IMG/VR virus record: IMGVR_UViG_3300033148_008499
Location: 1-38,607 of that record
DNA length: 38,607 nt
Source of the DNA: a virus
Strand: one strand, 5' to 3'
Shown here: piece after piece, positions 2,272 to 38,535 of the stretch
How positions within the stretch are numbered: the first letter of the stretch is position 1
How the letters are laid out: the number at the start of each line of letters is the position of its first letter
The notes under the pieces: generated by a model
Database searches by the model: none
What the model saw: only the letters and a program-made list of their open reading frames with translations
Told to the model about the DNA's origin: nothing
Translations under genes and position numbers: made by a program

Positions 2272-2761
2272 TATCCCCCCTATACCGGCATCTTACCAAC
2301 AAAAGAGACCACAAAAACCCACCACCAATTTTAGCGACTATTTGTGCCACTATAACCAATGGTAAAACTTGCCCAAATGCTATTGTTGGGAATAAAACAG
2401 AATCCGTAATAGATGCCCCGATATTTGATATGTTTATCTTTAATAGTCGTTTTCGTTTTATCAATAACTCATATATGACCGCATCAACGCTCATAGACGT
2501 AACAAAAGCTGCGCAACTGCCGATGGATATCATCAGCGCATCCTTGTTTAGCAAAAAAGTTATAACCCCACCGGCAAAAATCAAACCGCCCATTTTGGAT
2601 AGTAAACGTTTCCCGCGCCATGCTTCGTGTAATTTATCCCGCAACCCAATATTTAATCCGATGAGCAAAAAAGCATTTATCGGAGTAGCCCATGGGCCAA
2701 ACCACAATGCACACAAATTCGCCAATACAATCGATATTAAAAAAACTAAAACGATAAACAT
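2084..2761 (-). CDS. VUT-family (YhhQ/QueT-like) 7-deazaguanine precursor transporter
   Basis: This is an integral inner-membrane protein of the VUT family, whose members import queuosine/archaeosine precursors such as preQ0 or preQ1. The first ~163 residues carry the recognisable features: ANLCALWFGPWATPINAFLL in helix 1, the GLRDKLHEAWRG motif, and GGGFLWSLLL at the end of the last helix, with about five hydrophobic segments. The final ~62 residues (from about VRCRYRG on) are Cys/His/Arg-rich, unlike the family, and overlap the lipoprotein gene in another frame. A lost stop or frameshift near 2271 is likely. It overlaps the DpdA-like gene by 16 bp, pairing precursor uptake with base exchange. 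Confidence 0.82.
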   Translation of the reverse strand: MFIVLVFLISIVLANLCALWFGPWATPINAFLLIGLNIGLRDKLHEAWRGKRLLSKMGGLIFAGGVITFLLNKDALMISIGSCAAFVTSMSVDAVIYELLIKRKRLLKINISNIGASITDSVLFPTIAFGQVLPLVIVAQIVAKIGGGFLWSLLLVRCRYRGDNEKHKICHCSVFCVFNSMYAKSARNCFGKRKCSVQPNKQTGLWENQQHAISRICVCRHANRH

Positions 2762-3336
2762 TTTTGTTTTCTCCCTTCAAAATGTTCGATAAACGCAGCC
2801 AGTTGTTTCTGATCACCGCGGAAAAATCCTGTGCCGTCAACGGAATCGGCACCAATCCTCTCGGCCCAACATAATCGTCTTTCCGTATTTACTCGCCCGA
2901 TGTGGAGCCATTTTGTCACCCCTTTGAACTTGTGCGCGTTGGCCAGTTTCCACGCCGTAGATCCCCCGACAAAAACACAAAACGCCGTTTTCGGAACATC
3001 TTCCGGCCTGTGGCCATCTTGCACAGCAAACGCCAATGGAAACGGAATACGGTTATGCCACACGTGCCATCGTGCTGTTGTCGCTGTGGCGTCACCTACA
3101 ACATCAGGCACCACCACCCATAGCGGTCTGTGCATTATGGGAACGTCTCTTAATATGTCCATAAACAATACTTCGTCAAATCCCGTATATGCCCCATTAT
3201 CAAGAGCATACGGCAAATATTCTGGTACGGTGGAACGCCAGCCTTTCGGAGATATCAAAAGCCCAATTTTCCCAGGATATTTCCCAGCAAAATAATGGAC
3301 GATACCTTTGGTGTTGTTAGCTGGCATTATCATCAT
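2746..3336 (-). CDS. dpdA: DpdA-like transglycosylase (7-deazaguanine DNA modification)
   Basis: This 196-residue protein resembles the short phage DpdA enzymes, relatives of tRNA-guanine transglycosylase that swap guanine in DNA for a 7-deazaguanine base and so hide the DNA from restriction. I see LDNGAYTGF (~45-53), VVVPDVVGDA (~74-83), AFAVQDGHRPEDVP, CVFVGGSTAWKLANA and GADSVDGTGFFRG, all of the pattern of that family, with conserved Asp residues as candidate nucleophiles. Three ATGs lie close together (3336, 3333, 3327) with no clear Shine-Dalgarno. A tRNA-like sequence ends 2 bases before the first ATG. The overlapping VUT transporter supports the role. No preQ0 synthesis genes are present, so the precursor would come from the host. 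Confidence 0.8.
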   Translation of the reverse strand: MMIMPANNTKGIVHYFAGKYPGKIGLLISPKGWRSTVPEYLPYALDNGAYTGFDEVLFMDILRDVPIMHRPLWVVVPDVVGDATATTARWHVWHNRIPFPLAFAVQDGHRPEDVPKTAFCVFVGGSTAWKLANAHKFKGVTKWLHIGRVNTERRLCWAERIGADSVDGTGFFRGDQKQLAAFIEHFEGRKQKCLSF

Positions 3337-3730: not shown

Positions 3731-3759
3731 ATGCTAATGCCATGGCATGTAATAGTCAA
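3731..3759 (-). promoter_or_regulatory. Sigma-70-type promoter with palindrome in the spacer
   Basis: On the minus strand: TTGACT (3754-3759), a 17-base spacer (3737-3753), then TAGCAT (3731-3736). The spacer contains the perfect 12-base palindrome ATGCCATGGCAT (3737-3748), which recurs near other promoters in this genome and looks like an operator. The promoter overlaps the last codons of the VRR-NUC gene. Confidence 0.65.
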
Positions 3760-4133
3760 GACAATATTTTCCAGAATCGGAGCGTTTTTTGCACGTCGCC
3801 CACGCTGCGCACAATTGCATACTTAGATCCAACGGACCGGGCGGCCGCCTTGAATAGCGTTTGCGCGGAGCTCAGTCGGCCCGTAGCCGTTTTGACTTCC
3901 AAAAAAAACGCGCGTCCTTGCCATATGATAACAAGGTCCGCGCATCCCGGCGTAAGGCCCATATTCTTCAATCGCTGCACTGTCCCGTATTCTTTGCGCT
4001 TGTAGTGAGACACTACCTCGTTCGGCACGCTAAAAAACAGCAATCCGGCCGCGCCGGCGATCATCGATAAGTATGCCGCTATTCGCGATTGAATAATCCA
4101 TTCAGGCTCTTTGAGGCTCGGCTTCCGGGTCAT
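3756..4133 (-). CDS. VRR-NUC domain nuclease
   Basis: This 125-residue protein has the PD-(D/E)XK layout of the VRR-NUC family, whose members cut branched DNA such as Holliday junctions or flaps. Features in order are E11 and IQSRIAAYL (N-terminal acidic helix), VPNEV, then RLKNMGLTPGCADLVI with the metal-binding Asp. FLEVKT (Glu and Lys) follows, then GRLSSAQ and YAIVRSVGDV. The length is normal for phage standalone members. It overlaps the ribbon-helix-helix gene upstream by 32 bp. A replication or recombination cleanup role beside the helicase, RecT and exonuclease set is likely. Confidence 0.85.
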   Translation of the reverse strand: MTRKPSLKEPEWIIQSRIAAYLSMIAGAAGLLFFSVPNEVVSHYKRKEYGTVQRLKNMGLTPGCADLVIIWQGRAFFLEVKTATGRLSSAQTLFKAAARSVGSKYAIVRSVGDVQKTLRFWKILS

Positions 4134-4287
4134 AGCCTATTTTCTCAAAGACTGCTTCTCGTATCATTTCGCTGCGCGGGATTCGGCGTTCTTCGCAATA
4201 TTTGTCGATCACTTCCAAATCGCCCATTGAAACAAGAAACACGACTTTTTCATCGAGCCGTTGCTCTTTTGACAAACGTATACCCAT
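4102..4287 (-). CDS. Ribbon-helix-helix-like DNA-binding protein
   Basis: This 61-residue protein starts MGIRLSKEQRL, with a strong ribosome site GGAGGGA just upstream; I chose the ATG at 4287 on that basis. A short basic beta strand is followed by two helices, with the turn RRIPRSEMIREAVFEKIG typical of Arc/CopG-type regulators. It sits directly behind a promoter that carries the recurrent spacer palindrome. It is therefore a candidate for the repressor of that operator set (inference only). The gene end overlaps the VRR-NUC start. Confidence 0.7.
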   Translation of the reverse strand: MGIRLSKEQRLDEKVVFLVSMGDLEVIDKYCEERRIPRSEMIREAVFEKIGYDPEAEPQRA

Positions 4288-6929: not shown

Positions 6930-8234
6930 ATGAAGCACATTTTTGTATTTCTCATTATGGCATTTCTTTGTTTTTCGCTCTATGCAACTGGGCAGTCCGA
7001 TCCAAATGACGGACCGGAACCGATTGAGTTTTCCGTCCTCTATTCGGGCATAGGGACGTATGACAAAGGAACTGCTACCGAATGGACCAATGTCGGTTGG
7101 GCATTCGAACAGGTAAAAAAAGATTTCCCGGAAGCTGTTATGCGTGGTATGCAGGTCGATCTGTCGGACGGATCGCAACTGACAATGACGACGTTTCTTG
7201 CCGCGGGGAAAGCACCGAACGTCTACATGGACACGCTGGTTCGCAGCTCTACGTATATCACACCGGACTTTGCGTTGCCCCTTGACGAGTACGTGAGAGA
7301 CCTCGCGAAATATCCGGAGGATACCCTGGCACCATACCGGCGCAATGGTGATCTATTGGCATTGCCGCAACCGGGAAGTGCTCAAGGCATGGCTATTAAT
7401 CTGGACATGATGAAAGACATCGGCTACGAAGTTCCCGACAACTGGACGATTGCCGATTTTCTGGAAATGGCCGAGCTCGTAAAGCAAAAATACAATGGCG
7501 AGAAATGGGCCACGGGCATGTTTGCCGGCAATCAAAGCGGTGACTACTTGATCAACAACTGGTTCGCTGCCTTCGGGTGCCGGTACTATGATCCAGGAGA
7601 TTACTCGCACACAGTCATTCGGGATACCGGAGGCGCACAGGTGCACGCATTTTTCCAGACGCTTATGAAAAACGGGTACATACGCCAGGACGCAGCAACG
7701 CAGGTTGACGACGACTACGTTCTCGATTGGGCGCGGGGGAATCTCGCAGCTACGGCGTTTTTCCAATCATGGACAAAGCATTATTTCAAGGTATTGATCG
7801 ACAACGGAGAAATAAAGGAGCCGTTCGAATACAAGTTCGTGCCGTTCCCCCGTGCGGAAGGTGTCAATCGAGTTCCCACGTACTACATGAACGGCGCAAT
7901 TGTCGTGCACAAGAGCGGATCAGCGGCCGACCCGATTGCCGCGCGGTTCGCAGAATACCTGAACGGTGCAAAGATTCAGACCGCGGAGGTTTTGCTCAAT
8001 TCCGTGCTTCCCACCAGGACCGATGTGACGGCAAAGCCTGGCGACCCGTGGACCGCGCAGATTGCCGATATTGTCGCAGAGAACGGCATTTTTGATGTCG
8101 GGCTTACCAATGAAAAATTCGGCGCTACCAGACCGCAGCACTATTCAATCCTTCAAAAAGTGCTCAATCTCAAAAATACCCCCCAGGAAAGTATCGCCGA
8201 ATATGAAAAAGCGCTAAACGAAGCGCTCAAGTAA
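6930..8234 (+). CDS. ABC transporter sugar-binding protein (exported)
   Basis: This 434-residue extracellular solute-binding protein of the carbohydrate (MalE/UgpB-like) class would capture a sugar in the periplasm and deliver it to the two permeases downstream. It has an N-terminal signal peptide (MKHIFVFLIMAFLCFSLYA) ending in ATGQ, a form common in Spirochaetota binding proteins. Lobe features are AAGKAPNVYMD, LPLDEYV, LLALPQPGSAQGMAINLDMM, a Trp-rich middle and a late ILQKVLNLKNTPQESIAEYEKA-type terminal helix. The start follows an AGGAGG ribosome site. Length and motifs look intact. Finding it in a phage genome is highly unusual. The substrate cannot be told from sequence. Confidence 0.9.
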   Translation: MKHIFVFLIMAFLCFSLYATGQSDPNDGPEPIEFSVLYSGIGTYDKGTATEWTNVGWAFEQVKKDFPEAVMRGMQVDLSDGSQLTMTTFLAAGKAPNVYMDTLVRSSTYITPDFALPLDEYVRDLAKYPEDTLAPYRRNGDLLALPQPGSAQGMAINLDMMKDIGYEVPDNWTIADFLEMAELVKQKYNGEKWATGMFAGNQSGDYLINNWFAAFGCRYYDPGDYSHTVIRDTGGAQVHAFFQTLMKNGYIRQDAATQVDDDYVLDWARGNLAATAFFQSWTKHYFKVLIDNGEIKEPFEYKFVPFPRAEGVNRVPTYYMNGAIVVHKSGSAADPIAARFAEYLNGAKIQTAEVLLNSVLPTRTDVTAKPGDPWTAQIADIVAENGIFDVGLTNEKFGATRPQHYSILQKVLNLKNTPQESIAEYEKALNEALK

Positions 8235-8240
8235 TCTGTC

Positions 8241-8260
8241 GGCGGGACAGTCTTCCCGCC
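8241..8260 (+). terminator. GC-rich hairpin after the binding-protein gene
   Basis: GGCGGGA (8241-8247) and TCCCGCC (8254-8260) form a perfect stem with a six-base loop seven bases after the stop codon. No T-run follows, so it may act as an mRNA-stabilising or attenuating hairpin rather than a full terminator. Such hairpins often set a high ratio of binding protein to permeases. Confidence 0.55.
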
Positions 8261-8266
8261 ATTCCC

Positions 8267-8325
8267 GCGTCCGCTCGTGCTGCCGCAACATTCGTGGCAA
8301 CCGGGTTCAATTCCCGGTGGACGCA
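8267..8325 (+). other. tRNA-like structure lacking a D-arm
   Basis: Acceptor strands GCGTCCG (8267-8273) and TGGACGC (8318-8324) pair over 7 bases with one G-U. A perfect T-arm CCGGG-TTCAATT-CCCGG is at 8301-8317. An anticodon-like hairpin TGCCGC-AACATTC-GTGGCA (8281-8299) has a 7-base loop with CAT at the anticodon position but lacks the conserved T33. The D-arm is missing, giving 59 nt in all, so it is a decayed or deliberately reduced tRNA. It ends one base before the permease ATG. Confidence 0.45.
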
Positions 8326-8326
8326 G

Positions 8327-9157
8327 ATGAAATATCTCCTGCTTTTTCCGGCAGTTCTGGCCGTAGCGCTTTTTTTGCTATGGCCAATAGGGGAACTCGT
8401 TCGCTATTCGACGCTCAAAACGAATTTCATAACTACCTCGAGCGTGGGCCTGCTCAACTATCGCAATATGTTTCACAACACGGTATTTTTGCGTTCATGG
8501 GGAAACTCGTTTTGCTACATGGCAATCATGGTTGCTGCCAATATGGTCGTTTCAACGGGAATTGTGTTGATAGCGTTTACGCTAAAAAAACGGTGGCATG
8601 ATTTTATCAGGATATCGTTCTACGTGCCGGTCCTGGCGGCGGGAGTTATTATTGCTCAGGTCTGGCGATGGGTGTTCCATGCGCGTGGGCCGATCAACTG
8701 GATTCTGTCATTTTTCGGCGTCGATCCGATTTATTGGTTCGCGCAAGGAATCACTGCGATCCCGGCGGTCTCTCTTGTGGTCGTTGTTTCCGCATGGGGC
8801 GGAACGGTCATAATCCTACTTGCCTATGTGTTGTCTATCGACCCGGCGCTATATGATGCGGCAACGATTGACGGCGCCACGTGGGGGCAAATAAAGCGAC
8901 GGATTGTTCGTCCTCTCATGTGGCCGGCCATAGCCATGGTATCCCTTATGGCTATGATTGCAGCCGCGCAAGTCTTCGAAACGATCTATGTGCTGGCTCC
9001 ATATGAATACTCGGCAAGCGTTACGTTTCACATATACCGTGAAGCGTTTGTTTTCGGGCGGTTTGGCTATGCAAGCGCGCAAGCAATCATGCTATTGCTG
9101 GTGACGGCTGCAATGACAATCGGGAAAAAAAGGATAGAACAGGCAATAGGAGGATAG
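8327..9157 (+). CDS. ABC sugar transporter permease, MalF-like
   Basis: This 276-residue inner-membrane permease has six predicted membrane segments (KYLLLFPAVLAVALFLLWPI at the start, the last around AQAIMLLLVTAAMTI). It carries the EAA loop that docks the ATPase, LYDAATIDGATWGQIKRRIV, before the last two helices. It would pair with the second permease gene at 9371 to form the channel for the binding protein. I chose the ATG at 8327. A GTG at 8294 in the same frame would add 11 residues but lies inside the tRNA-like element. No ATPase gene is in the genome, so a host MsmK/UgpC-type shared ATPase would be needed. Confidence 0.9.
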   Translation: MKYLLLFPAVLAVALFLLWPIGELVRYSTLKTNFITTSSVGLLNYRNMFHNTVFLRSWGNSFCYMAIMVAANMVVSTGIVLIAFTLKKRWHDFIRISFYVPVLAAGVIIAQVWRWVFHARGPINWILSFFGVDPIYWFAQGITAIPAVSLVVVVSAWGGTVIILLAYVLSIDPALYDAATIDGATWGQIKRRIVRPLMWPAIAMVSLMAMIAAAQVFETIYVLAPYEYSASVTFHIYREAFVFGRFGYASAQAIMLLLVTAAMTIGKKRIEQAIGG

Positions 9158-9161
9158 CTAT

Positions 9162-9383
9162 ATGAAACTTGTAAACATAGAATTATTCGGCAATGCCGAA
9201 CAAGAAAAAATCTGGGTGAATCCGGAACAGATATGCTACATCATCGCTCGCGAGAGAAAAAATTCTTCTAGTTTTACACCGACGTGGGGAATAGAACTTA
9301 TATTTGGAGACCATACGCTTTTACTCGAAGCGCGGGGCAAAGAAGAAGTCCAGCGCCTGGTTTCTGACTTATGTCAAAAATAA
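9162..9383 (+). CDS. Small hypothetical protein between the permease genes, 73 aa
   Basis: Strong ribosome site TAGGAGGATAG upstream. The protein is short and beta-rich, with W-V-N-P-E-Q-I-x-Y-I-I and GIELIFGDHTLLLEARG, like a small SH3-type or FlbD-like fold. Its helical end includes EEVQRLVSDL. It overlaps the second permease by 13 bp, so the four transporter-region genes are one operon. Function unknown. Confidence 0.65.
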   Translation: MKLVNIELFGNAEQEKIWVNPEQICYIIARERKNSSSFTPTWGIELIFGDHTLLLEARGKEEVQRLVSDLCQK

Positions 9384-10183
9384 TTATCTTAATAGCGGCG
9401 GTGCTGCTCCTCGTCCCGCCGTATTTCATGGTTATCGGCAGCTTCCAAGACATACATGGCGTATTTATTATGCCGCCGAGGCCGCTGCCACTACACCCAA
9501 CGCTTGAGAATTACCGAAAATTGCTATCAACTGACGGCGTGGTCAGGTGGGCATTCAATAGCGTGTTCGTTGTCGCCTGCGTCGTAGTGTTGTCTGTAAT
9601 CGTGGCGGCCGGTGCCGGGTATGCGTTTTCGGCATATCGATTTCCGCTGAAGCGGGTTCTGTGGATGCTTTTGCTTATGGGCATTATGGTCCCGAGGATT
9701 TCAGCAATCGTGCCGCTGTTCGTAGTAATCAATCGCTTGAAATTGTCCGGCACCATGATTGCTGCTGTGCTTCCCGTAATCGCATCGCCAATCAATTTCT
9801 ACCTGGCCCGAACGTATTTCGAAAGCATCCCCAAGCAATACATAGAATCGGCGCGCATCGACGGTGCGAGCGAAACGCAAGTATTAGCAAACATTATCGT
9901 TCCGGTCGCCCGGCCGATCATCGCTACGATTGCGCTATTCTCGGGCATTGCAGCGCTCGGTGATTATATATGGCAAATGCTTATATTGCAGGACGAAAAA
10001 AAATATACGCTGATTGTCGGGCTCACAAAAACAATCATGAAACGCGGCGGGGCGGATATGGGAAACCTGAATCCTATCGGACAATCCATGGCCGCCGGCT
10101 GCATTCTGTTGCTGCCTATCCTGGCGATCTTTTTGGTCGCCAACAAATATTTCACGCAGACCATTCAGGGGGTAAAAGACTAA
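9371..10183 (+). CDS. ABC sugar transporter permease, MalG-like
   Basis: This 270-residue permease has six hydrophobic segments (first at residues 3-23). The loop PRPLPLHPTLENYRKLL after helix 1 is typical of MalG-type proteins, and the EAA motif YIESARIDGASETQVLANII contacts the ATPase. The gene starts inside the end of the 73-aa gene, and its stop overlaps the next start (TAATG). It appears intact and would form a heterodimeric importer with the MalF-like permease. Confidence 0.9.
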   Translation: MSKIIILIAAVLLLVPPYFMVIGSFQDIHGVFIMPPRPLPLHPTLENYRKLLSTDGVVRWAFNSVFVVACVVVLSVIVAAGAGYAFSAYRFPLKRVLWMLLLMGIMVPRISAIVPLFVVINRLKLSGTMIAAVLPVIASPINFYLARTYFESIPKQYIESARIDGASETQVLANIIVPVARPIIATIALFSGIAALGDYIWQMLILQDEKKYTLIVGLTKTIMKRGGADMGNLNPIGQSMAAGCILLLPILAIFLVANKYFTQTIQGVKD

Positions 10184-10395
10184 TGGCACGAAAAATTCAT
10201 ATCAAGGGAATGTGGCTGTGCCGCGCGTGTGGCGTGGCGAGCGATATTCACAACTGGGAAGAAACGCCGATCTATGCTCCGTTCTTCGAGTGTCCGCATT
10301 GCGGGTCAATCGTCAATGTTACGCGAGCAAATGAAAAAGCGGAATTCGACAAAACGGAAAAGTCGAAGCCGGGAAGACCGAAAAAAGAAGAATAA
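10183..10395 (+). CDS. Zinc-ribbon protein with AT-hook-like tail, 70 aa
   Basis: Two CxxC pairs (CRAC at 13-16, CPHC at 37-40) give a rubredoxin-type zinc ribbon. The tail is basic (EKSKPGRPKKEE), with the GRPKK core seen in AT-hook DNA-binding motifs. The start is fused to the permease stop (TAATG). Probably a small nucleic-acid-binding protein; its function in the operon is unknown. Confidence 0.6.
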   Translation: MARKIHIKGMWLCRACGVASDIHNWEETPIYAPFFECPHCGSIVNVTRANEKAEFDKTEKSKPGRPKKEE

Positions 10396-10442
10396 AATAG
10401 TCATTGCGGCCGTCGCCACAGCGGCAATGGGAGGACAACAAC

Positions 10443-11213
10443 ATGACAATAGCAATCATTATCGGGCGCGGAGGAAGCAAGCGGTTGCCGAGGAAAAACG
10501 TATTGCGGTTCTGCGAGCATCCGCTCATCGCCTGGTCAATCGTTCAGGCAAAGTGTTCGCATCGTATCGATTGGGTGTACGTAAGCACGGACGACGACGA
10601 AATAGCAGCCGTTTCTCGGGAATATGGAGCCGAGGTTATCCGGCGGCCCGAATGGCACGACGCCGATCTTGTTTCGGCCAATCGCCCATATCGGCATGCG
10701 ATGAAGGAACTCCTCATGGAATACGGCGAAGAGTTTAACACGGCGGTAACTATCCTTCCCACGTCACCGCTGAAGCGGCCGCAAGACATGGATCTTGGTA
10801 TAAAACTGGCTCATGATTACGGGTTGCAGGAAGTGATTCCTATCAGCAAGCGGCGGGAAACCATGATCTATCGGGTCACGCATCCGTTTACTGCGCGCAC
10901 GGTATTTTTGGACAAGGGATACCATTTTGCCGGCCCCGGCGCATCATGGAACGTGTGCAACCCGAGAGGCTATATTGCGTTCACCGAAGCGTTCAGCGAT
11001 TTAGACCATACGCTCGATGATCGAGCCATGCACCATCTGGAGGAAAGCCCGAGGCTGGATGTCTCGTACATAGAAGTCCCGTTGTGGCAACAATTCGAAG
11101 TGGACACGCAAGAGGAATGGGCTTTGGCGGAAGTGCTCATGGAGCACTACATATTAAAGGGCAAAGGCCCGGAGGTTTATTATGAGTACGCAGGAAGAAA
11201 AAATCACGAGTGA
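10443..11213 (+). CDS. CMP-nonulosonate synthetase-like cytidylyltransferase (NeuA/PseF family)
   Basis: This 256-residue enzyme starts MTIAIIIGRGGSKRLPRKN, the nucleotide-binding signature of acylneuraminate cytidylyltransferases, which activate sialic, legionaminic or pseudaminic acid as the CMP sugar. Later motifs are VYVSTDDDEIAAVS, TILPTSPLKRPQDMD and a substrate region with RRETMIYRV. A C-terminal DT-x-E-E-W follows, typical of the family. The ATG at 10443 follows the ribosome site GGGAGG; a TTG further upstream is less likely. The next gene encodes a Maf-like DUF115 protein that could use the product. The exact sugar cannot be deduced. The related CMP-KDO synthetases are a less likely alternative. 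Confidence 0.8.
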   Translation: MTIAIIIGRGGSKRLPRKNVLRFCEHPLIAWSIVQAKCSHRIDWVYVSTDDDEIAAVSREYGAEVIRRPEWHDADLVSANRPYRHAMKELLMEYGEEFNTAVTILPTSPLKRPQDMDLGIKLAHDYGLQEVIPISKRRETMIYRVTHPFTARTVFLDKGYHFAGPGASWNVCNPRGYIAFTEAFSDLDHTLDDRAMHHLEESPRLDVSYIEVPLWQQFEVDTQEEWALAEVLMEHYILKGKGPEVYYEYAGRKNHE

Positions 11214-12567
11214 CATGAAAAATGAAATCCCCATTGAATCGGCATACCGAAGCAATTCGAGTCAATTCAATTTTGGGACCATGATGAAACAGCAAATACA
11301 TGAGGAGTACAATAGCGCGTATAACCATCAGCATATTCTTGCAATGATTAACGCCGGGCGTGCATATGATATCAGCCAAGAGCCAAGGCAACACGGCCCG
11401 GTGTTCGTTATCGGGTCCGGTCCGAGCCTGGACTTAAGCATCAAGCATCTGAAAAAATGGGACGGCGGAATCGTGTGCAGCACGAGTCAAGCGCTTACGC
11501 TCATGTATCACGGGATAGAACCCGATTACATTGTTGCGCTCGATCCGTTCAGCCAATGGGACGAACTGGCCGGCGTAGATTGGTCAAAAACGAAGGCGAA
11601 ATTGGTCGCTCATCCGGGAGTATGGCCCGATCTATACGAAAATTGGCCGAATAAGGTGTTGCTGTATCGGCAAAACATCGGGAGGCCGGATAGCTTTTAC
11701 GCGACCACGCAAAAGCATATGTATTCGGTGCGCGGCGGCACGCGGGACATGACGGAATTCAAATTGCTTATTCTGACCGAGCTCACGTTGCTTGCATGCT
11801 CGCCGCCCCTCCAGGTGTTTGTCGCGGATAAGGTCGGGTATGGGACGGTGTTTCTCGCAGGCTGCGACTTCGGATTCCCACACAACAAGAGCCGATTTAC
11901 TATGTATACAGTAAAACGACCGGCAAAGGCCGCTTCTCCGGGGAATGCGCCAACGATCGACGTGCCTATCGAATGGGAAGAGCACGAATCGCTCCTAGAC
12001 ATAGAATCGCTTCGGGCTGCGGCCGAAAAAGAGCAAAACGAGGTCATAAAAAGCGACAACGGGGTGTATACGCAAAAAATCCACCTGTTTTACAAAAAAA
12101 ACTTCATTACCGGCTGGCGCCTGTCCCTGAAAACCATGTATACGACCGACAAGGGAACGATTACCGAGATTCCGTACACGAGCATCGAGAAGGTGATAAA
12201 AAATAAGGGCAAAGCAAAGCGGCAGACGCCCGAATACATCAAGCGGGTCACGGAGCAGTACCTGGCGCGGTCGGGTGCGTTTGTTATCGAAAGCGAGGAC
12301 GGCGCTATGAGCTTTGTGGAAACGCAGAACCCTATCGTCGATCTGTATTCATACATGATGAACATGCGCAAGCAGCTTTATTGTCCTAAGTGTGGGATAC
12401 ATGCGCATGCAGACGACGGGAAGGACCATTCCGGGGAACCGTGCGCCAGGTGTGGCGGCAAGCTTGAGCTCAAAAACAAAATAGGTATTGCCAAAAATAT
12501 GGAACGGATTCAAGAGCTTATGAAATACGTAGAAAAGTATGAAGCGCAAAAAAAAGCGGCCGACTAA
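11182..12567 (+). CDS. DUF115/Maf-like protein (putative nonulosonate glycosyltransferase) with C-terminal zinc ribbon
   Basis: This 461-residue protein carries the DUF115 (6-hydroxymethylpterin kinase MptE-like) fold shared by Maf motility accessory factors, which add nonulosonic acids to flagellin. The core is PVFVIGSGPSLDLSIKHL, STSQALTLMYHGIEPDYIVALDP, then TVFLAGCDFGFP. An unusual four-cysteine zinc ribbon lies near the C-terminus (C401, C404, C421, C424), followed by a helical KR-rich end. The ribosome site is GGAGG. It overlaps the cytidylyltransferase by 32 bp, so the pair is likely coupled (CMP sugar donor and transferase). The target (host surface, flagellum or virion) is unknown. 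Confidence 0.75.
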   Translation: MSTQEEKITSDMKNEIPIESAYRSNSSQFNFGTMMKQQIHEEYNSAYNHQHILAMINAGRAYDISQEPRQHGPVFVIGSGPSLDLSIKHLKKWDGGIVCSTSQALTLMYHGIEPDYIVALDPFSQWDELAGVDWSKTKAKLVAHPGVWPDLYENWPNKVLLYRQNIGRPDSFYATTQKHMYSVRGGTRDMTEFKLLILTELTLLACSPPLQVFVADKVGYGTVFLAGCDFGFPHNKSRFTMYTVKRPAKAASPGNAPTIDVPIEWEEHESLLDIESLRAAAEKEQNEVIKSDNGVYTQKIHLFYKKNFITGWRLSLKTMYTTDKGTITEIPYTSIEKVIKNKGKAKRQTPEYIKRVTEQYLARSGAFVIESEDGAMSFVETQNPIVDLYSYMMNMRKQLYCPKCGIHAHADDGKDHSGEPCARCGGKLELKNKIGIAKNMERIQELMKYVEKYEAQKKAAD

Positions 12568-21975: not shown

Positions 21976-21992
21976 AGTTTTCCAAAATGATC

Positions 21993-22396
21993 AAGCGAGC
22001 CAAAGGTAGGAAGACACCCACTTCGCGGAAGCGAGCCAAAGGTAGGAAGACACCCACTTCGCGGAAGCGAGCCATTATTGCGAAGACATCCAACGCCGAG
22101 AAGCGAGCCATACTGCATAAGACACCCAGAGTGGTGAAGCGAGCCACGGTGCGCAAGACACCCACTGTATCAAAGCGAGCCACGACGAATAAGACACCCA
22201 AAACAGCGAAGCGAGCCATTATTGCGAAGACACCCAAGGCCGAAAAGCGAGCCACGAAACGGAAGACACCCACTCTGCTTAAGCGAGCCAGACGAAACAA
22301 GACACCCACTCTGCTTAAGCGAGCCAGACGAAACAAGGCACCCACTTGGCCGAAGCGAGCCAGCAAATCAAAGACACCCAGAGCGCTTAAGCGAGC
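21993..22396 (+). repeat. TIGR-type array: 11 units of 36 bp, 22 eight-base spacers
   Basis: Each unit is AAGCGAGCCA, 8 variable bases, AAGACACCCA, 8 variable bases. The first 10-mer is identical in all 11 units, and its first 8 bases recur at the end (22389-22396). The second is identical in 9 of 11 (variants AAGACATCCA and AAGGCACCCA). Since the array begins and ends with AAGCGAGC, that repeat fits the edge repeat and AAGACACCCA the loop repeat. Edge-side spacers: AAGGTAGG twice, TTATTGCG twice, TACTGCAT, CGGTGCGC, CGACGAAT, CGAAACGG, GACGAAAC twice, GCAAATCA. Loop-side spacers: CTTCGCGG twice, ACGCCGAG, GAGTGGTG, CTGTATCA, AAACAGCG, AGGCCGAA, CTCTGCTT twice, CTTGGCCG, GAGCGCTT. The 36-base period and two short spacers per unit match published tigRNA arrays. 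Confidence 0.9.
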
Positions 22397-22418
22397 ACCC
22401 TTCGGGGTGCTTTTTTTT
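22394..22418 (+). terminator. Rho-independent terminator closing the TIGR array
   Basis: AGCACCC-TTCG-GGGTGCT (22394-22411) followed by seven more Ts. The stem begins inside the last partial edge repeat, so the array transcript ends exactly with the array. This supports plus-strand transcription and an RNA product. Confidence 0.93.
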
Positions 22419-36626: not shown

Positions 36627-36655
36627 AATATAATGCTATGGCATGGCATTGTCAA
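36627..36655 (-). promoter_or_regulatory. Near-consensus promoter of the exonuclease-recT unit
   Basis: On the minus strand: TTGACA (36650-36655), a 17-base spacer ATGCCATGCCATAGCAT, TATATT (36627-36632). It is the strongest promoter match in the window and has the ATGCCAT operator pattern filling the entire spacer. It lies partly inside the methyltransferase gene's last codons. Confidence 0.82.
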
Positions 36656-37307
36656 GGGGAAGTTTTGTCTGCCGGGTGAAAGTATACACCCGCTCCTCTA
36701 TCGCCTTGAAGTAGTCGGCATCTATCTCATAACCGATGTACCGGAAGCCCATATCAAGGCACGCGATATAGCTGCTGCCGCTGCCCATGTGCGTGTCGAG
36801 GATGAGTTGGCCAGGCTCGGCGTAATTGGCAAGAAGCCATTTGTAGAGAGCTACCGGCTTTTGGGTGGGATGAATGCGCTCAATTTCTTTGCCTAATAAT
36901 CCATTCCATTCCAATACATGTTTTTTTACAGATTTCCTATTAAAACTCGTCCACGCCAATTCCCCATCCCCAAATGTAGGCATAGTATTTAGCTTATCCC
37001 AGAATATCCAATGCCCAGCAACTGGCAACTTATCCGTAAAAAAATTGCCCCCAAAAATTATTGTATGCTTTGCTATTCGCATCAATGCATCAAAATATAC
37101 TTTTTCTGGAGATTTATTATCCCAATTACCAATATATTGTTTCCTCGCAATGGGCTTCCCGAACCCTCCGAACCCTCCGAACCCTTTATCTCGTTTTATC
37201 CCATACGGCGGGTCAACTATCGCCAAGTCAACATAGTTATCCGGCATCTGCGCCATGCCTTCCATGCAGTCTATGTTGTAAATGCCCGGTTGCGTGTAGT
37301 CACTCAT
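36636..37307 (-). CDS. DNA methyltransferase (N6-adenine/N4-cytosine type)
   Basis: This 223-residue SAM-dependent enzyme carries the catalytic DPPYG at residues 32-36, followed by a GFGGFGGFG repeat, then WNGLLGKEIERIHPTQKPV and the SAM-binding LDTHMGSGSSYIA near the C-terminus. This is the order of beta-class methyltransferases (catalytic motif before the SAM motif). I start at ATG 37307, after AAGGTG; a GTG two codons upstream is the alternative. No restriction partner is seen, so an orphan enzyme protecting phage DNA is likely. It would act alongside the DpdA modification. Confidence 0.88.
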   Translation of the reverse strand: MSDYTQPGIYNIDCMEGMAQMPDNYVDLAIVDPPYGIKRDKGFGGFGGFGKPIARKQYIGNWDNKSPEKVYFDALMRIAKHTIIFGGNFFTDKLPVAGHWIFWDKLNTMPTFGDGELAWTSFNRKSVKKHVLEWNGLLGKEIERIHPTQKPVALYKWLLANYAEPGQLILDTHMGSGSSYIACLDMGFRYIGYEIDADYFKAIEERVYTFTRQTKLPLDNAMP

Positions 37308-37316
37308 GCGCACACC

Positions 37317-37817
37317 TTATTTTATGATTGCAGCAACCCCGGCGACCGCCGCGGCACCCACGCAAAAACCAACCAGCGCGCTAATTATGGTCCTCTGCCG
37401 CAGGGTTGCCTGAATAGATTCGGATAAGCTCGTCAATATCGTCCACGCTTGCCCCAATAGATCGGATGATTCCTTCAACGATTGCTCGGCTTTCCCTATT
37501 TGCTGCTTCAAGTTCGTCAATTCGGCTTGCTTGCTCGTCAACAACGTTTCTAAGTCGGTTATTCTCCGCCCGGAGGCTTCGATAATGGTTCGCTGTGATT
37601 CCGTCAATTCCCTCAATTGCTTCAATTGAGATTCCTGCATCTGCAATGATTCGTTCAAGGTCTGAATTTCGCTTTCGAGATTCACTAAGCGCGCTTTCAA
37701 GCGCAACAATCTTACGAGAATCAAGTCGGGTTCCAAGGCCGGAGACGTAGCAGAAAATAATAGTCCCGACAATGACAGCCAAAGTATACAGTATACCAGT
37801 AATGATTTTCGTGGCAT
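37317..37817 (-). CDS. Secreted/anchored coiled-coil protein, nested in another frame of its neighbour
   Basis: This 166-residue protein has an N-terminal signal-like hydrophobic segment (LVYCILWLSLSGLLFSATS) and about 90 residues of coiled coil (LESEIQTLNESLQMQESQLK and onward). It ends in a C-terminal transmembrane helix (IISALVGFCVGAAAVAGVAA). It overlaps almost all of the 147-aa gene in a different frame (offset +1). Both proteins have convincing composition, so this is a true overlapping gene pair. The two frames resemble spanin pairs, in which one gene lies inside the other, beside holin and endolysin. Confidence 0.72.
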   Translation of the reverse strand: MPRKSLLVYCILWLSLSGLLFSATSPALEPDLILVRLLRLKARLVNLESEIQTLNESLQMQESQLKQLRELTESQRTIIEASGRRITDLETLLTSKQAELTNLKQQIGKAEQSLKESSDLLGQAWTILTSLSESIQATLRQRTIISALVGFCVGAAAVAGVAAIIK

Positions 37818-37824
37818 TACTCAT
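37381..37824 (-). CDS. Membrane-anchored coiled-coil protein, i-spanin-like
   Basis: This 147-residue protein has an N-terminal transmembrane helix (IITGILYTLAVIVGTIIFCY) and a long coiled-coil periplasmic part (SRKIVALESALSESRKRNSD; LRAENNRLRNVVDEQASRID). It ends VDDIDELIRIYSGNPAAEDH. Shape and position (overlapping the holin-like gene by 4 bases) fit the inner-membrane spanin subunit, although sequence families of spanins are too diverse to prove it. The companion frame at 37317-37817 could supply the partner. Confidence 0.7.
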   Translation of the reverse strand: MSNATKIITGILYTLAVIVGTIIFCYVSGLGTRLDSRKIVALESALSESRKRNSDLERIIADAGISIEAIEGIDGITANHYRSLRAENNRLRNVVDEQASRIDELEAANRESRAIVEGIIRSIGASVDDIDELIRIYSGNPAAEDHN

Positions 37825-38051
37825 TCCCCCCCTCCGTTTTGCTCGTCGAGCTCGGCGCGATAGTATTTCGACCGCTGGAATGCGTAGAACACATTCCCGC
37901 CGATATATGTAGCGGCGTTACCGACAATCATGACGATAACGGTCGGCCCAATTGCCGGGATCGCTTCCGGGGCACATAGCGCGGTGATTACGTAAATCAC
38001 CATGAGCGCGGCAAGCGTAGTAAAAAAAGCGATTGCTTTCCGTGATTTCAC
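37821..38051 (-). CDS. Holin-like small membrane protein, 76 aa
   Basis: A GTG start at 38051 is preceded by AGGGGGT. The protein starts MKSRKAIAFFTTLAALMVIY, with two predicted membrane helices (~6-25 and ~31-53), then a short basic-acidic tail (AFQRSKYYRAELDEQNGGGE). Size, two helices and its place right behind the endolysin fit a holin. The family is not identified. Upstream extension in the same frame (to 38144) overlaps the endolysin end and is less likely. Confidence 0.62.
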   Translation of the reverse strand: MKSRKAIAFFTTLAALMVIYVITALCAPEAIPAIGPTVIVMIVGNAATYIGGNVFYAFQRSKYYRAELDEQNGGGE

Positions 38052-38052
38052 G

Positions 38053-38535
38053 TCAATACCCCCTGCATGCCTGGAAATGCATGCCGTCTTTGATCGGCCA
38101 GTCTCCGCCCCATATCCACCCGCGACGAGTAAACGCCCGGACAACGGCGTGCGGCATGGACGACGGCATGTCTATTTTCCCGTAATTCGGCGCGTAATCC
38201 ATGGCGATCAGCCATGCGTGTGTTGAAAGCTGCGTAGAATCCGTGGCTTTCGACCTATGGGAATGGACGCCGCCGGTAATGTCGAGGCCGCTCGCGTGCA
38301 AAAACTCATACCCGTAATATTTTTCAATCTCAAGAAGAGCATCATGCAATGAATCGGCCACCAATTTGTGCACGCGCAGGGTCGTGAATATCGTTTCGAT
38401 GTTCCAATGCGCGCGCATAGGAAACGGCAGCGGCATGCTTTCGGTCATGTCGTCCCAAAAGTTCTCAGAGGAAGGATCCCCATAATAATCATAAATGTCG
38501 TCTATTCCATACGGGATAAAACCTAATGTTCTCAT
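38053..38535 (-). CDS. Endolysin, M15 peptidase
   Basis: This 160-residue peptidoglycan peptidase of the VanY/D-Ala-D-Ala carboxypeptidase type carries the zinc motif H106-x6-D113 (STHAWLIAMD) and H153 (KDGMHFQA). The conserved GWIWGGDW lies in between. It cleaves the stem peptides of the cell wall at lysis. Its 5' end lies in the terminal repeat, so it continues on the circle directly upstream of the helicase stop. The TAA/GTG junction with the holin-like gene is one base wide. Confidence 0.9.
   Translation of the reverse strand: MRTLGFIPYGIDDIYDYYGDPSSENFWDDMTESMPLPFPMRAHWNIETIFTTLRVHKLVADSLHDALLEIEKYYGYEFLHASGLDITGGVHSHRSKATDSTQLSTHAWLIAMDYAPNYGKIDMPSSMPHAVVRAFTRRGWIWGGDWPIKDGMHFQACRGY

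Follow-up and report, generated by a model that had tools for sequence, protein, structure and literature searches.

Can two complete coiled-coil membrane genes be stacked in different frames of the same phage DNA, and if so, what would the two proteins do? An earlier note on this DNA had described two such open reading frames, of 147 and 166 amino acids and overlapping by about 437 bp, and had proposed an unusual spanin pair with complementary anchors. The window, by which we mean the whole stretch of 38,607 bases analysed here, is the viral record IMGVR_UViG_3300033148_008499; it carries an exact terminal repeat of 114 bases and is therefore probably a complete genome. Both reading frames were indeed found, on the minus strand: gene A (147 aa) at 37381–37824 and gene B (166 aa) at 37317–37817, in the +1 frame of A. 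The two share a dual-coding region of 437 nt (37381–37817, minus strand), and B continues past the stop codon of A into a tail of its own (37317–37380, minus strand) that encodes a C-terminal membrane helix (TIISALVGFCVGAAAVAGVAAIIK).

The pair lies in the lysis cassette, where the order on the minus strand is M15 endolysin, holin-like gene, A, B, DNA methyltransferase, RecE-like exonuclease and RecT-like protein. The endolysin (160 aa, 38053–38535), which was absent from the earlier note, matches Peptidase_M15_4 (Pfam, E = 1e-14) as well as PHROG endolysin families. Directly 3' of its stop codon is the GTG start of the holin-like gene (76 aa, 37821–38051), which encodes two membrane helices and for which family searches gave no match. 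Downstream of A/B follows the DNA methyltransferase gene (36636–37313; PHROG_67, 9e-46), probably a flanking gene outside the lysis unit, so that both neighbours previously claimed for the pair were borne out. The start of A overlaps the stop of the holin-like gene in an ATGA (37821–37824, minus strand), an arrangement that would couple the translation of A to that of the holin-like gene, and a Shine-Dalgarno sequence, GGAGG (37831–37835, minus strand, within GGAGGGGGGGA), lies 6 nt from the ATG of A and 13 nt from the ATG of B, the two starts being 7 nt apart. Both of these closely spaced starts would be served by a single Shine-Dalgarno sequence coupled to the upstream stop, and A and B would in this way be made together.

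Direct sequence searches of phage records and viral contigs returned no homologue of A or B, and no close relative of the window pair. Relatives were collected via the exonuclease, a gene unrelated to the pair, and three of them carry A/B, namely L028, L029 and L032 (exonuclease identity 61%, 58% and 41%, respectively). A and B are found at 1360–1713 (117 aa) and 1364–1807 (147 aa) in L028, at 3743–4156 (137 aa) and 3750–4202 (150 aa) in L029, and at 2696–3079 (127 aa) and 2694–3173 (159 aa) in L032. The start of B is thus offset from that of A by +4, +7 and −2 nt, respectively, and B is therefore in the +1 frame in these relatives, as it is in the window, with the starts 2–7 nt apart in all four phages. 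B begins at −0.005 to 0.017 of the length of A and extends beyond the A stop in each phage, the B-only tails of the three relatives being 15–31 codons. The ATGA junction at the A start recurs in L029, and A of L032 starts with GTG. Just upstream of A/B, all four phages have an endolysin or putative endolysin gene, and its type differs: M15 in the window, DUF261 in L028, M23-like in L029 and, judged by eye, C39-like in L032, where the small protein in the endolysin position had no family match. When the architecture was looked for across 1.56 Mb of retrieved phage DNA, it turned up only in these four phages, apart from three pairs that lack coils. The distant exonuclease relatives L118–L120 gave no match to B and no pair in the stretches scanned, while relatives of the endolysin and generic helicase relatives were rejected as a source of pairs, as they are unrelated phages, and were used as background.

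Are both frames coding? Inside the other genes of this phage, the +1 frame stays open over 437 nt in 6 of 4034 in-frame windows. We also permuted codons so that one protein and its codon counts were kept and the openness of the other frame was scored. The probability that A is open given B was 0.017 in the window, 0.014 in L028, 0.009 in L029 and 0.0003 in L032; for B given A the values were 0.13, 0.029, 0.003 and 0.036, the 13% of the window being weak by itself. Fisher combination over the four loci, which takes them as independent though they share ancestry, gave 1.2e-6 (A given B) and 2.6e-4 (B given A), and still 6e-6 and 2.9e-4 when the window was dropped, that locus having been selected for being open. 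Both frames are open in the three distant relatives, and the DNA of the four loci does not align beyond 11–17 nt, which indicates that openness was kept while the sequence was replaced. Synonymous codon scores were higher for both frames than for the third frame in three of the four phages, the exception being the AT-rich L032.

One could nevertheless suppose that B is the sole gene and A a chance open frame whose helix and coil come from T-rich and A-rich stretches of B. The N-terminal hydrophobicity of A was reached in 0–30% of recodings of B, and for L032, where A starts with GTG, 96% of the recodings of B yield a hydrophobicity like that of A. The signal in leave-one-out profiles was likewise weaker for A, which beats 491–500 of 500 block-shuffled decoys, than for B, which beats 500 of 500 in every phage. 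We consider this explanation unlikely, given how seldom A is open given B at each of the four loci, the ideal Shine-Dalgarno spacing of the window A start, the ATGA junction in two of the phages and the weak matches of A to i-spanin PHROGs in three of the four. The converse, that A is the sole gene, an i-spanin with its o-spanin elsewhere, and B the chance open frame, draws on the 13% openness of the window B frame and on A being the i-spanin-like protein, but is hardly credible. In all four phages the C-terminal helix of B is encoded past the A stop, outside the overlap, and thus cannot be a by-product of A; moreover, the N-terminal hydrophobicity of the B signal peptide was reached in just 0–6% of recodings of A, the profile signal is the stronger one for B, and a lipoprotein gene was not found near the lysis genes. 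The recoding test also ruled out the pair as a by-product of composition. A single gene split by a sequencing frameshift was rejected, since A and B are each a complete frame with separate ends and the layout is the same in four lineages, and an alternative genetic code is not needed. We regard B as almost certainly a real gene and A as likely one; the suggestion of two real genes is well supported, with the architecture conserved in four lineages within the lysis cassette.

The architecture that had been read from the sequence is in line with hydropathy and with AlphaFold2 models of A and B, run with four-member alignments. A has a membrane helix at its N-terminus (about residues 6–28) followed by a long helix or coil, an arrangement seen by hydropathy in all four phages; its model consists of helix 3–71, a hinge at 72–76 and helix 77–137 (mean pLDDT 74). 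B has a signal-peptide-like N-terminus, a coil of about 110 residues and a membrane helix at its C-terminus, and is modelled as helix 4–21, a low-confidence linker at 24–29 and a single helix from 30 to 165 (mean pLDDT 83). The coils of A and B are each about 110 residues and would measure some 16–17 nm if helical; that of A is presumably periplasmic. Two-component spanins are expected to have periplasmic cysteines. In the window, Cys25 of A lies at the membrane helix, the cysteines of B lie within the signal peptide and the C-terminal helix, and a periplasmic cysteine for disulfide-linked dimers is absent from both proteins; the relatives are mixed in this respect. A matches PHROG_739 (Rz-like spanin) weakly, with E = 0.0016 in the window and 0.001–0.003 across the window, L029 and L032. 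The same profile also matches an XhlA-like protein, and the match of A may thus reflect just a membrane helix plus a coil.

A relative that lacks the A/B pair, G003 (L030 and L121; exonuclease identity 45%), is informative about the position of the pair. It has a canonical spanin pair on the minus strand, with an i-spanin of 121 aa (L121, 3762–3397; PHROG_739 Rz-like spanin, 1.2e-6) directly 3' of a holin-like gene and, in the +1 frame, an o-spanin (3485–3138), a proline-rich lipoprotein with a STAC lipobox-like site. A/B resembles this pair in phage group, lysis cassette and +1 frame, but in G003 the partner is a lipoprotein and the overlap is limited to the last quarter of the i-spanin. The scan that recovers the G003 o-spanin found no such gene next to the lysis genes in the window or in the other three A/B phages (G001, G002 and G005). 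With a canonical pair in a comparable place in G003 and no lipoprotein there in the A/B phages, A/B holds a spanin-like cassette position; B matches the o-spanin in place and frame, which is not demonstrated homology, and no alignment connects the two. Lipoproteins do occur elsewhere in these genomes: the sole candidate of the scan in the window is a small one with an LTAC lipobox (1999–2271), away from the lysis genes, and the L032 phage encodes a 292-aa lipoprotein with IKEVPV-type repeats (L133, 1699–2577), far from the lysis cassette.

One of the closest known systems is the embedded Rz/Rz1 pair of lambda (PMC6139136), with which A/B shares the cassette position, an N-anchored inner-membrane coil protein and a partner encoded by the same stretch in the +1 frame. 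B differs from Rz1, however, in that it is not a lipoprotein, passes the stop of its partner, has a C-terminal membrane helix and starts at about 0 of the partner length, whereas embedded o-spanins mostly start at 0.4–0.5 of the i-spanin length (PMC6139136). That survey lists 586 spanin systems, every one with a lipoprotein, and 13% of its phages of Gram-negative hosts appeared spanin-less; it mentions type I proteins carrying a C-terminal membrane helix as a possibility that its search criteria did not cover (PMC6139136). All four B proteins lack a lipobox, the feature by which both spanin classes are defined, and we therefore do not file the pair as a spanin; it is spanin-like, outside the defined classes. 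The earlier proposal of a spanin pair accordingly holds in part: the cassette position, the i-spanin-like A and the canonical pair of G003 speak for it, while B is not an outer-membrane lipoprotein and has no obvious outer-membrane anchor, which counts against it. A search of open-licence papers did not turn up a pair of this kind.

Judging from the sequences and their comparison, we put a probability of roughly one half (0.52) on A and B being co-initiated, fully overlapping lysis genes that stand in for a spanin pair. The N-terminal helix of A would insert in the inner membrane, leaving the coil in the periplasm. B would be exported by its signal peptide and most likely be a type I protein of the inner membrane, anchored through its C-terminal helix. 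The two coils would pair within the periplasm, and after the endolysin has removed the peptidoglycan, the A/B complex would disrupt the outer membrane and so take over the role of Rz/Rz1 with no lipoprotein involved. Inner-membrane insertion is the default for Sec-exported proteins that have a hydrophobic helix at the C-terminus. With both partners anchored there, it would be the free ends of the coils that have to act on the outer membrane. The alternative of truly complementary anchors, a lipid-free spanin in which A sits by its N-terminal helix in the inner membrane, B by its C-terminal helix in the outer one and parallel coils span the periplasm, is doubtful, because hydrophobic helices are as a rule halted in the Sec translocon. 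If true, such a bridge would be an outer-membrane-breaking machine without a lipoprotein, made in a fixed ratio from one fully dual-coded gene.

In a further arrangement, A would be an accessory and B alone would link the membranes, with its N-terminus at the outer membrane and its C-terminal helix in the inner one. Apart from the lipid, B follows the layout of a u-spanin, from a secreted N-terminus through a periplasmic domain to a C-terminal helix, and like the unimolecular spanin gp11 of T1 it has features of an exported protein with a C-terminal membrane helix and is encoded in the lysis cassette. However, gp11 is a lipoprotein whose periplasmic part is beta-rich; B shares neither property, and it has the overlapping partner A. 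The missing lipobox in all four B proteins and a periplasmic part that AlphaFold2 models entirely as helix, where u-spanins are beta-rich (PMC6139136), make this arrangement very unlikely.

Lastly, A and/or B could be a holin, an antiholin or an XhlA-like holin partner in the inner membrane that sets the timing of lysis. The pair adjoins two-helix holin-like genes, as XhlA and hemolysin-type holin partners adjoin a two-helix holin, and an inner-membrane location is possible for both proteins. B shares with those partners a coil and a C-terminal membrane helix, also matched PHROG hemolysin families, and without its signal peptide would resemble XhlA. That signal sequence is nevertheless a difference, and the score of B against Pfam XhlA (PF10779), 19.6 bits, is far below the gathering score of 34.7, the match being confined to the coil. 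Moreover, the window, L029 and L032 have separate holin-like genes, L032 in addition has its own XhlA-like gene besides A/B, and the comparison with G003 places the pair in a spanin-like position. We thus regard a holin-related role as rather unlikely.

As a candidate stand-in for a spanin pair, A/B offers a concrete, conserved case of a possible spanin partner without lipid, a type that lipobox-based surveys did not search. It is also an extreme form of dual coding, in which two coil proteins overlap over nearly their full length from almost coincident starts, a layout that has persisted while DNA similarity was lost by divergence. A search rule usable on other phages follows from these four loci: a co-initiated +1 pair, one member N-anchored and the other C-anchored, after an endolysin.

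The host is likely a spirochaete, and hence two-membrane. The putative endolysin of L028 (637–1158; DUF261, Pfam 8e-18), taken to be one from its position, belongs to a family whose matches among plasmid records are all from Borrelia or Borreliella (169 of 169); its place in L028 and its occurrence otherwise on Borrelia/Borreliella plasmids suggest that DUF261 is a spirochaete phage lysis enzyme. The leader of the host-like sugar transporter genes in the window looks spirochaetal. These genes are part of a cargo region (6930–12567) that encodes the binding protein and two permeases of a sugar ABC transporter. The region also contains a pseudaminic-acid-cytidylyltransferase-like gene, whose match to the PseF model (5e-27) stays below the cut-off of that model, and encodes a 461-aa protein that had no NCBIfam match and by eye looks like a motility/glycosylation factor (DUF115). 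Among the head genes of the window, an array of units of about 36 bases (21987–22400), with two conserved 10-mers (AAGCGAGCCA and AAGACACCCA) and variable spacers, is open as a KRA...KTP repeat protein. In the relatives, the helicase gene of L027 (694–3612), on the same contig as L029, appears to carry an intein, as its helicase match contains a long insert that ends in HNC. L029 also has an exact 37-base repeat (10410–10446 and 11401–11437). One copy lies within the exonuclease gene, in a part that the proteins of the relatives lack, and the second about 1 kb downstream, just past that gene; the repeat pair is possibly a small mobile element.
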